This document shows, piece by piece, positions 54,968 through 57,606 of a stretch of 64,000 nucleotides of DNA. This DNA comes from Tsuneonella aeria (GTDB taxonomy: Bacteria > Pseudomonadota > Alphaproteobacteria > Sphingomonadales > Sphingomonadaceae): contig NZ_WTZA01000001.1 in NCBI RefSeq assembly GCF_009827495.1, positions 496,001-560,000 on the forward strand, given 5' to 3'. Position 1 is the first letter of the stretch, and each line of letters starts with the position of its first letter. Position numbers and translations under genes: made by a program. The notes beneath the pieces were generated by a model. That model was not told the origin of the DNA. It saw only the letters and a program-made list of their open reading frames with translations, and did no database searches.

Positions 54968-55254
54968 TATCGGATCACCTCGATATCGGCAGTGCAGAGC
55001 GATGGCACAGGTGTGAGCGGCCCGGTCATCCGAACACCCCAACCCTTCTCAACGAGATCAGCAACCTCGTCGATGCTCGCCAATCGCTTCATGTTTTCCT
55101 CGACGTTCCAACGCCGTTTTCCATCCGACCCGACCACGCCGTCCGGAGAATAGACCCGATAGAAACCGTCGGCATGACGGTGTGCTGTTCGAGTCTCCGT
55201 TTCACCCTTGCGAGGTCCGGTTGTGAACTGATGTTTCTTCTGGACGACAGTCAC
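54967..55254 (-). CDS. Small protein inserted between nuoF and nuoG
   Basis: 95 residues, not recognised. It starts at a GTG overlapping the nuoF stop (GTGA) and ends TAA overlapping the nuoG ATG, so it is tightly coupled on both sides. The first 30 residues are basic ([18 protein letters not shown]), followed by [21 protein letters not shown] and [19 protein letters not shown]. No membrane helix, no cysteine motif. By my count it is about 57 percent G+C against about two thirds nearby, which suggests later acquisition. Could be an accessory or assembly protein of the NADH module, or a passenger kept in frame by coupling. Confidence 0.7.
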
Positions 55255-56540
55255 TCCGCCGCCTCCGCCATGTTGCCTGCCTCGGCAATCCGCCTCTCGA
55301 GCTCGGGGCGGAAGTGACGGATCAGGCCCTGAATGGGCCACGCAGCCGCATCGCCCAGGGCGCAGATCGTGTGGCCTTCCACCTGCTTGGTCACCTGGTG
55401 GAGCATGTCGATCTCGTCCACGTGCGCGTCGCCGGTGCGCAGGCGTTCCATGACACGCCACATCCATCCGGTGCCTTCGCGGCACGGGGTGCACTGGCCG
55501 CAGCTTTCGTGCTTGTAGAAATAGCTGATGCGGCTGATCGCGCGGACGACGTCGGTCGATTTGTCCATCACGATCACGCCCGCCGTGCCGAGGCCGCTGC
55601 CCAGTTCCTTGAGCCCGTCGAAATCCATCGGCGCGTCCCAGATCTGGTCCGCCGGAACCAGCGGCACGGACGAACCGCCGGGGATCACCGCCAGCAGGTT
55701 CTCACGCCCGCCGCGAATGCCGCCGCAGTGCTTCTCGATGAGCTCGCTGAACGGGATGCTCATCGCCTCTTCCACCACGCAGGGCCGGTTCACGTGCCCG
55801 CTGATCTGGAACAGCTTGGTGCCCTTGTTGTTCTCCCGCCCGAAGCTGGAGAACCAGTTCGCGCCGCGCCGCAGGATCGTGGGTGTGACGGCAATGCTTT
55901 CGACATTGTTGACCGTGGTCGGGCAACCATAGAGGCCAGCGCCTGCCGGGAACGGCGGCTTGAGGCGCGGCTGGCCCTTCTTGCCTTCCAGGCTTTCGAT
56001 CATCGCGGTTTCTTCGCCGCAGATGTAGGCGCCCGCGCCGCGGTGGACGAAGACGTCGAAGTCGTAGCCCGATCCGGCCGCGTTCTTGCCCAGCAGCCCG
56101 GCGTCGTAAGCCTCGGCCACGGCGGCGAACAGCGTTTCCGCCTCGCGGATGAATTCCCCGCGGATGTAGATGTACGCGGCCCGCGCGCGCATCGCGAAGC
56201 CGGCGACCAGCGCGCCTTCGATCAGCTTGTGCGGATCGTGGCGGATGATCTCGCGGTCCTTGCAGCTGCCGGGTTCGGATTCGTCGGCGTTGATGACCAG
56301 GAAGCTCGGCCGGCCGTCCTTGCTTTCCTTGGGCATGAAGGACCACTTCATGCCGGTGGGGAAGCCCGCCCCGCCGCGGCCGCGCAGGCCGGAATCCTTG
56401 ATTTCCTGGATGATCGCGTCCTGCCCGCGGGCGAGCAGCGCCTTCGTATCGTCCCAGTCGCCGCGCGCCTGCGCCGCCTTCAGCCCCCAGTCCTGGAAGC
56501 CGTACAGGTTGGTGAAGATGCGGTCCCGGTCAGCCAGCAT
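55251..56540 (-). CDS. nuoF: NADH-quinone oxidoreductase subunit F
   Basis: 429-residue flavoprotein binding FMN, NADH and the N3 4Fe-4S cluster. Motifs: [16 protein letters not shown] (FMN/NADH glycine-rich), [30 protein letters not shown] and the cluster ligands [12 protein letters not shown] with the later Cys in [13 protein letters not shown] chose the ATG at 56540; a TTG at 56555 is possible. Ribosome signal before it is poor, but a 15-codon frame beginning GTGA at the end of the 46-residue gene, with a strong GGGAGGA before it, runs across this start and stops 10 bases inside. Confidence 0.96.
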
Positions 56541-56573
56541 TTGCGAGCGTCCCAATCAAAACGTCAGCCAGGC

Positions 56574-56714
56574 TCACGAAAATCCTCCCTGCGAGGCAAA
56601 CCATGCCGCAGCTCCTAGGATCAGCACGATCGCGGTGAACTTCGCCACGCCCGCGAACACCTTCCAGGCGATGAAGACAAGAACCAGCGCGATGATGATC
56701 GTGGTCACGCTCAT
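56574..56714 (-). CDS. 46-residue membrane protein between nuoE and nuoF
   Basis: One or two short hydrophobic helices: TTIIIALVLVFIAWKVF and FTAIVLILGAAAWFA with a Lys between. No family recognised. The ATG at 56714 overlaps the stop of the 36-residue peptide gene (GCATGA arrangement), so it is translated only together with it. Low-complexity hydrophobic sequence with good codon usage and conserved overlap logic supports a real gene. Candidate supernumerary membrane peptide of complex I; this is inference. Confidence 0.68.
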   Translation of the reverse strand: MSVTTIIIALVLVFIAWKVFAGVAKFTAIVLILGAAAWFASQGGFS

Positions 56715-56821
56715 GCCAGCACCTGCAGGCCGAGCGCAGCCAGGATGAACAGCGCGGAACCGATCGAGGTATAGCGCACGATCTTCATCGTGCGCCTATC
56801 TTCGGGAAGCGTTTCGGCCAT
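56711..56821 (-). CDS. 36-residue membrane peptide following nuoE
   Basis: A basic head (LPEDRRTMKIVRY) and one helix (SIGSALFILAALGLQVLA) ending the protein, so a single-pass tail-anchored or leaderless peptide. The ATG overlaps the nuoE TGA (TGATG), the TGA overlaps the next ATG. Below the size normally annotated automatically, yet placed exactly in the operon with one-base joints on both sides. Confidence 0.66.
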   Translation of the reverse strand: MAETLPEDRRTMKIVRYTSIGSALFILAALGLQVLA

Positions 56822-57489
56822 CACCATTCGCCCCGGTAATCGTGATTCTCGTCCGCCATCGCGGTGAGCGAACTCAGCGCCCCGGCCGGCTCGACCGTAT
56901 GCCGCGCCGGGTCCTGGGTGCCTTCCTTCGGCGTCTCGCCGCGGGCGAGCGCGTCCAGCACCGAGTCGAGCCGCTCGGGCGTCAGGTCTTCGTAGTTGCC
57001 GTCGTTGATCTGGACCATCGGCGCGCTGGCGCAGTTGCCCATGCATTCGACTTCGGTCAGCGTCCACATGCCGTCGTCGGTCGTGTGGCCCTTCTTCATG
57101 CCGCGCGCGTAGCAGGCGTCGAGCAGCGCATCCGACCCGCGCAGCATGCACGGCGTTGTGCCGCAGACCTGCACGTGGAAGCGGCCGACCGGGGCGATGT
57201 TGTACATCGTGTAGAACGTCGCGACCTCGAGCACGCGGATCACGGGCATATTGAGTTCGCGCGCCACGAATTCGATCACGGGGAGCGGCAGCCAGCCCTG
57301 CGTGTTGGTCTCCGCGCCGACCTGGTACTGGGCGAGGAACAGCAGCGGCATCACAGCCGAACGCTGCCGCCCTTCGGGATAGCGCGCGACGATCTCTTTC
57401 GCCTTGGCCGCGTTGTCGGCGGTCCAGGCAAAGGAACCCCACCGCTCGCGCAGCTCGGGCGTGTCGGGAGCAGGCGCGCGGTCAGCCAC
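56821..57489 (-). CDS. nuoE: NADH-quinone oxidoreductase subunit E
   Basis: 222 residues; thioredoxin-fold 2Fe-2S subunit (N1a). Cluster ligands are in CGTTPC and CMGNC; YTMYNIAPVGRFHVQVCGTTPCML and EVECMGNCASAPMVQIND are typical. A C-terminal extension of about 55 residues beyond the E. coli protein is common in alphaproteobacteria. Separated from nuoD by a 117-base gap filled with a dispersed palindromic repeat. Confidence 0.95.
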   Translation of the reverse strand: MADRAPAPDTPELRERWGSFAWTADNAAKAKEIVARYPEGRQRSAVMPLLFLAQYQVGAETNTQGWLPLPVIEFVARELNMPVIRVLEVATFYTMYNIAPVGRFHVQVCGTTPCMLRGSDALLDACYARGMKKGHTTDDGMWTLTEVECMGNCASAPMVQINDGNYEDLTPERLDSVLDALARGETPKEGTQDPARHTVEPAGALSSLTAMADENHDYRGEW

Positions 57490-57502
57490 GACGATCCCCC
57501 CA

Positions 57503-57590
57503 GATCGTCGCCCCGGCGAAGGCCGGGGTTGGGCTTTGCTTCGGGCATCCCAAGAAGGAAGCCGAATCCCGGCTCAAGGCCAGGATGACG
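57503..57590. repeat. Palindromic intergenic repeat inside the nuo operon
   Basis: Two hairpins: CCCCGGC-GAAG-GCCGGGG (57511-57528, perfect 7-base stem) and ATCCCGGC-TCAA-GGCCAGGAT (57566-57586, one mismatch). This is the style of dispersed alphaproteobacterial palindromic elements with CCGG-rich stems. It is the only sizeable non-coding gap within the nuo genes. It could stabilise or trim the mRNA between nuoD and nuoE. Confidence 0.7.
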
Positions 57591-57606
57591 AGTTTGCCGA
57601 ATGGTC

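Follow-up and report, generated by a model that had tools for sequence, protein, structure and literature searches.

Gene order and joints at the nuoE–nuoF junction

In the window (the whole 64,000-nucleotide stretch of Tsuneonella aeria DNA analysed here), the minus strand carries, in order, nuoD, nuoE, a 36-codon frame, a 46-codon frame, and nuoF, with a 15-codon frame bridging the last two (Table 1). The 36-codon frame meets nuoE in a 1-base overlap (TGATG), or in one of 7 bases if it begins at the upstream ATG at 56827, which would lengthen it to 38 codons, and it meets the 46-codon frame in a 4-base overlap (ATGA). The first-pass annotation of this DNA had reported tight overlaps at three joints, which holds for these two and fails at the third, where a 33-base gap without overlap separates the 46-codon stop from the nuoF start. 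The 15-codon frame overlaps this stop by 4 bases (GTGA) and nuoF by 11 bases. Expressed as spacings for termination–reinitiation (about −8 to +10 nt), the first two joints lie at −1 (or −7) and −4 nt, and the distance from the 46-codon frame to nuoF, at +33 nt, is out of range; passage through the 15-codon frame, if it is translated, would give −4 and then −11 nt.

Table 1. Features at the nuoE–nuoF junction, in coordinates of the window.
Feature	Coordinates	Strand	Basis
nuoE (2Fe-2S thioredoxin-like subunit)	56821..57489	minus	Pfam PF01257, E 1e-50
36-codon frame, single hydrophobic stretch	56711..56821	minus	TGATG joint and codon score
46-codon frame, predicted family A membrane microprotein, core A16/K18/G22/K25	56574..56714	minus	Conservation, codon use, selection, AlphaFold2
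GGAGGA Shine–Dalgarno-like site within the last codons of the 46-codon frame	56583..56588	minus	Duplex energy
15-codon GTG frame bridging the 46-codon frame and nuoF	56530..56577	minus	Starts like relatives' NuoF (MSLAD)
CTGGCTGAC, two copies	56571..56563 and 56537..56529 (span 56529..56571)	minus	Interpreted as a partly duplicated nuoF start
nuoF (NADH- and FMN-binding subunit), ATG 56540	55251..56540	minus	Pfam PF01512, E 3.8e-46; PF10589, E 6e-32

Codon use was scored with a model trained on eleven gene stretches of the window's nuo region. None of 962 stop-free wrong-frame segments scored as high as the 36-codon frame (0.54), and a single one reached the score of the 46-codon frame (0.46); the two small frames described between nuoE and nuoF lie at the coordinates first given for them and have gene-like codon use. 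The duplex energies of the Shine–Dalgarno sites in the window were −7.0 kcal/mol for the 36-codon frame, −6.3 for the 46-codon frame, −10.9 for the 15-codon frame (GTG at 56577), and −3.9 for the nuoF ATG. The weak site at nuoF is no proof that its translation depends on coupling, since the energy at the nuoD start, as assigned here, is only −3.3.

Conservation, selection, and predicted structure of the small proteins

Of the 11 genomes in the genus, 10 have kept the 46-codon frame. A profile built from 36 members of its family (hereafter family A) was run against 149 genomes of the Sphingomonadaceae (the family in a broad sense, its name taken from relatives), and all 52 matches at E ≤ 0.002 sat 3–217 bases upstream of nuoF on the nuoF strand, this line having been set after the matches were seen and leaving 25 weaker ones (E 0.006–0.96) unplaced. 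A core of A-x-K-x3-G-x2-K is nearly fixed: A16, K18, G22, and K25 do not vary among the 36 profile sequences, and in 75 members chosen by motif, a choice that is biased toward the motif and permits only these exchanges, the A is present in 73, K18 in 74, the G in 75, and K25 in 71 (R in 4). In 53 of these 75 members, the stop codon of the gene is no more than 12 nt from the start of nuoF, with a 1- or 4-base overlap in 49 of the 53.

Pooled over the seven closest non-identical family A pairs, which span pS 0.08–0.23, pN/pS was 0.22 (25/703 nonsynonymous versus 41/254 synonymous, P = 3e-10). Wider pairs gave 0.80 at pS 0.05–0.4 and then 0.74, 0.63, and 0.54 in higher bins, values that probably reflect biased, saturated third positions (GC3 0.81). 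The first-pass annotation had held that such tight overlaps are hard to keep by chance and had named frame conservation and low dN/dS in related nuoE–nuoF gaps as one check. The codon scores of both frames speak for more than chance, and for the 46-codon frame the check came out as proposed, in its retention within the genus and in the purifying selection seen in close pairs. A chance open reading frame is ruled out for the 46-codon frame by codon use and purifying selection, and on this evidence it is a genuine, conserved protein gene.

Neither of the two window proteins matched a Pfam model at E ≤ 1. Single members of family A gave scattered weak Pfam matches, none of them convincing (best E 0.003), the commonest being to Ycf66_N (9 of 36 members, best E 0.0072); a match of one member to complex I chain 3 (E 0.036) was taken as noise. 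In NCBIfam, which was queried with the two window proteins and separately with the hairpins described below, the best match of the window proteins was the Ecr regulatory small membrane protein (NF033861), which was rejected at 9.8 bits versus a cut-off of 33. No PDB chain matched the family A profile at E ≤ 1, and neither PDB nor Pfam yielded homology to a known supernumerary subunit. A class-wide search of 241 genomes (four of them in the family, including the window's own) returned four partial matches besides the window (E 0.0018–0.0098, 23–26 of 46 positions), all weak as well as partial, which were not accepted as family A outside the Sphingomonadaceae. A literature search, to which subscription papers were mostly closed, brought up no account of small membrane proteins encoded at the nuoE–nuoF junction of sphingomonads. 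Judged by these comparisons, family A is a new, unnamed family of membrane microproteins in a respiratory operon.

AlphaFold2 (34 alignment rows) modelled the 46-residue protein as one helix over residues 3–41 (mean pLDDT 94.3, pTM 0.52), on one face of which K18, G22, and K25 fall by our own arithmetic. This is a single-chain model, and a short membrane hairpin may be the alternative fold.

Family A is patchy in its distribution, 97 of the 149 genomes being without a match at E ≤ 0.002, though nuoF was found in 141. On a quick NuoE tree of 168 sequences, the family A label required 26 changes, six of which were forced by well-supported branches. The same-genus genome G006 (locus L012) has nuoF and lacks family A, and two loci of one genus that are sisters at SH-aLRT 99 differ in that one (L033, genome G069) carries a cassette with two genes, family A among them, in about 300 bases, and the other (L082, genome G140) has no cassette and a 1-base overlap. 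Because family A is patchy and missing in relatives that have nuoF, it is not essential for complex I; a core subunit would be present wherever the enzyme is, and family A is absent from the nuoF-bearing G006 and from many junctions.

For the 36-codon frame, no relative turned up in the genus; one genome there (G003) gave two matches at E 0.33 and 0.61, both elsewhere. In the 149 genomes of the family, the 36-residue protein had three weak, partial matches (E 0.008, 0.055, and 0.085), which fell inside frames of 403–928 residues and were not accepted. The idea that the 36-codon frame is a truncated hairpin of a neighbouring type was also rejected: a SIGSA stretch is seen by eye in both the frame and locus L127, but a profile comparison aligned one column. 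For this frame the proposed comparison with related genomes therefore gives no clearance, as none of the 149 genomes holds a relative, and its codon use is gene-like; it is probably a translated, lineage-private member of the cassette.

Small frames at the junction across the Sphingomonadaceae

From 206 loci, seven were dropped, two because nuoE was missing and five because no nuoF start was recognised. The others reduced to 169 distinct junctions, of which 40 are direct (gap ≤ 20 nt) and 129 carry an insert. We defined a chain as a series of frames of at least 10 codons in which each start lies −11 to +6 nt from the previous stop, ending with a frame that stops between 6 nt before and 12 nt past the nuoF start. 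By this definition, an unbroken chain from nuoE to nuoF was found in 115 of the 129 gapped junctions, compared with 47.2 in dinucleotide shuffles, 62 with reverse-complemented inserts, and 52.2 after deletions of 1–2 bases; with stricter joints, 96 were chained, versus 31.3, 51, and 28.7 in the respective controls. A strongly hydrophobic frame was present in 116 of the 129 inserts (13.6 in shuffles, 7 reverse-complemented), and in 41 of the 54 inserts that lack a motif-picked family A member (4.5 in shuffles, 1 reverse-complemented). The many control junctions that chain (47 of 129 in shuffles, 62 when reverse-complemented) and the commonness of stop-free frames at such composition are what would be expected of chance open frames in GC-rich DNA, but given the codon use of the 36- and 46-codon frames and the conservation and selection of the latter, we consider chance extremely improbable as an explanation of the small genes.

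The occupants of the junction comprise family A, a Sphingomonas form, and several hairpin types. The Sphingomonas form may be a diverged family A, to which it is weakly matched (hhalign probability 52.6%, E 1.4e-4). One hairpin type, type C, has matches in 14 of the 149 genomes, 12 of them directly upstream of nuoF by coordinate comparison; off the junction, there is a strong copy far from nuo in G073 (L251, 2027..2320, minus strand) and a weak match elsewhere in G052. Thirteen inserts are without a hydrophobic frame, several of them repeat-like by eye, and 12 of these 13 are chained versus 7.4 expected (P = 0.003).

In inserts that resemble interspersed repeats (L172, L202, L074, L088, L176, and L204), an open frame stays chained to its neighbours; the repeat HPEL.SGS...LKQVQHDG, found in L172 and L202, is an example. 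At L155, the gap between nuoE and nuoF extends to 1028 bases and holds a small hydrophobic frame and a frame of well over 200 residues that is chained to nuoF.

Outside the family, 37 of 40 nuoE–nuoF junctions, hand-picked from the top of the NuoF listing for the class and so not a random sample, were direct, two had gaps without a hydrophobic frame, and one was without a nearby nuoE. Since these junctions are nearly all direct, adjacency of nuoE and nuoF looks ancestral. A Shine–Dalgarno energy of −6 kcal/mol or lower was found before nuoF in 85% of the 40 direct and 78% of the 129 gapped family junctions, and at 20% of random positions in the body of nuoE. In the junctions inspected, the next start after the Shine–Dalgarno-like site at the end of nuoE is that of nuoF in the plain form and that of the first cassette frame otherwise.

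At the 3′ ends of nuoE (e.g., L031, L081, L162, and L164), the codons of a recurring HDYR...W hold a G-rich, Shine–Dalgarno-like stretch directly before TGATG; in L081 and L162, this seam joins nuoE to nuoF with no cassette between them.

Chaining was also scored at the neighbouring seams of the nuo operon in the window and 80 loci, allowing start codons up to 36 nt from the expected start. Gapped seams were chained in 58 of 61 cases between nuoD and nuoE (18.5 expected) and in 43 of 46 cases between nuoF and nuoG (5.9 expected), so that chaining appears to be a habit of the operon and is not peculiar to nuoE–nuoF. Because these seams and the inserts without a hydrophobic frame are chained too, overlap alone says little about function or about membership in complex I. 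We take the chaining at the other seams as support for a cassette reading of the junction and as an argument against reading function from overlaps alone.

At the nuoF–nuoG seams in loci L127–L206, several proteins that begin like a signal peptide reach about 200 residues or more; they are chained to both nuoF and nuoG, and a C-V-x-R-D-P-like stretch recurs in them. In the window itself, the nuoD–nuoE gap (57490..57606, minus strand) is repeat-like by eye, yet a frame runs across it from the stop of nuoD to the start of nuoE.

Proposed role of the cassettes

Our preferred reading, to which we assign a probability of roughly 0.57, is that the small genes encode co-translated accessory factors of complex I, carried in interchangeable cassettes that keep nuoE and nuoF coupled. 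An accessory protein of complex I would be expected to be encoded in the nuo operon and to be specific to it, which is what was found for family A in its 52 matches at E ≤ 0.002; from this location and from the selection on its sequence, we infer that family A is an accessory or assembly factor of the enzyme. The earlier suggestion of supernumerary subunits or assembly peptides is in keeping with the seam location of the 46-residue gene and is tempered by the relatives that do without it (G006, G140).

The ancestral layout would have been nuoE–TGATG–nuoF, with a Shine–Dalgarno site inside the end of nuoE. In the Sphingomonadaceae, this seam would have become a slot for small membrane-protein genes, a cassette usually being a run of one to four small frames. 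Each frame would begin at its predecessor's stop codon or close to it and would often bear the next Shine–Dalgarno site in its own final codons, and ribosomes finishing nuoE would still reach nuoF by termination–reinitiation. Synthesis of the family A peptide would keep pace with that of NuoE and NuoF, and the peptide would form a long membrane helix or short hairpin, the stripe K18–G22–K25 of which may contact a partner within the membrane arm or close to it. In the window, the 15-codon frame would carry ribosomes across the last 33 bases into nuoF.

An unlikely, though serious, alternative is that the membrane proteins encoded by the small genes have nothing to do with complex I and that these genes profit from the steady expression of the nuo operon, where mostly frames that preserve coupling survive. 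Such hitch-hiking would account for the different and apparently unrelated hydrophobic frames that come and go at the same seam, for the chained accessory frames at the nuoD–nuoE and nuoF–nuoG seams, some of which begin like signal peptides and run to at least 200 residues, and for the copy of the type C hairpin elsewhere in G073; it is at odds with family A, whose matches at E ≤ 0.002 (52 of 52, with the 25 weaker ones at E 0.006–0.96 unplaced) lie nowhere but at the seam. In a further reading, the seam would act as a socket that accepts any small membrane peptide running from the nuoE stop to the nuoF start. Unrelated peptides would then share one job for which insertion into the membrane and tight co-translation suffice; they might, for instance, tether polysomes engaged on the soluble NADH-oxidising module to the place where the membrane arm assembles. 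We regard this as distinctly improbable.

Under the preferred reading of accessory factors in cassettes, a close parallel in design is CydX of cytochrome bd, a small accessory subunit of a bacterial respiratory enzyme that is encoded in the operon of that enzyme. The 46-residue protein has the size and shape of a CydX-like protein (30–60 residues, a hydrophobic helix, operon-encoded), and both are tiny and hydrophobic, with a gene that neighbours the gene of a core subunit in a respiratory operon. Family A differs in that it belongs with another enzyme, to which its binding is a prediction, in that several interchangeable types occur at its seam, and in that it was found here in one family of bacteria. 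The nuo operon of Paracoccus has unidentified reading frames between nuo genes, which by description resemble the present case, being short frames that separate nuo genes in another member of the Alphaproteobacteria.

The complex I of bacteria is mostly regarded as a minimal enzyme of 14 subunits, to which Alphaproteobacteria add a few extras, according to the available text of PMC8115037. That text and the available parts of PMC11522691 describe the supernumerary subunits NDUFS4, NDUFS6, NDUFA12, and PIMT in the complex I of Paracoccus denitrificans, where they stabilise the hydrophilic domain or the heel. These are likewise extra proteins of an alphaproteobacterial complex I; unlike them, family A is matched by no solved chain at E ≤ 1. 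Mass spectrometry of the Paracoccus enzyme missed two small hydrophobic core subunits, as stated in the same portion of PMC8115037, so a protein like family A could be missed as well.

The 1- and 4-base stop/start overlaps at the junction are like those of the termination–reinitiation pairs treated in the available parts of PMC10666635 (see also PMC6728339), which notes that gene overlaps are enriched among subunits of complexes. The junction differs from such pairs in that two genes which relatives keep adjacent are split by small ones while the chain of overlaps is kept. Part of a large, well-sampled family holds, between nuoE and nuoF, a conserved and unnamed membrane microprotein alongside other, changing ones, mostly joined in a way that leaves the path to nuoF open. 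Family A is thereby a concrete candidate for a subunit or assembly factor of complex I in Erythrobacter, Novosphingobium, and their relatives, and related species in which the cassette is present, absent, or swapped may serve as a natural series on how coupling limits the settling of new small genes.

It is also conceivable, though quite unlikely for the cassettes as a whole, that an open, overlapping path from nuoE to nuoF is what matters and that the peptides are idle. The chaining of 12 of 13 non-hydrophobic inserts (7.4 expected, P = 0.003) is consistent with such a translational relay, as are the strong Shine–Dalgarno site in the window that serves the 15-codon frame and not nuoF and the non-coding codon use of that frame. 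The purifying selection and nearly fixed residues of family A and the occurrence of hydrophobic frames far above chance argue against it, and direct coupling of nuoE to nuoF would relay equally well or better. A relay is nonetheless the favoured reading of the 15-codon frame and a possible one for the 36-codon frame.

At −0.25, the codon score of the 15-codon frame is in the wrong-frame range: 884 of 2866 wrong-frame segments do at least as well, and among 776 true segments just 4 do as badly or worse, so that the case for a gene is weakened. The start of the frame resembles the NuoF of several relatives (MSLAD) and CTGGCTGAC is common to the frame and the present nuoF start, so we read the frame as a duplicated nuoF start, probably a relic and not a protein of its own, and a relay at most. 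Termination–reinitiation requires an overlap or very short distances; for the gene pairs examined in the available part of PMC10666635, a distance of about 20 nt all but eliminated it, so the frame could act as a carrier of ribosomes into nuoF. Frames of 12–15 codons with a NuoF-like start that end in the nuoF start were seen at 5 of the 169 junctions (the window, L025, L110, L147, and L161), and in all five the nuoF ATG follows a similar TTT..GG..CTCGC stretch; these may be duplicated starts or a tiny element.
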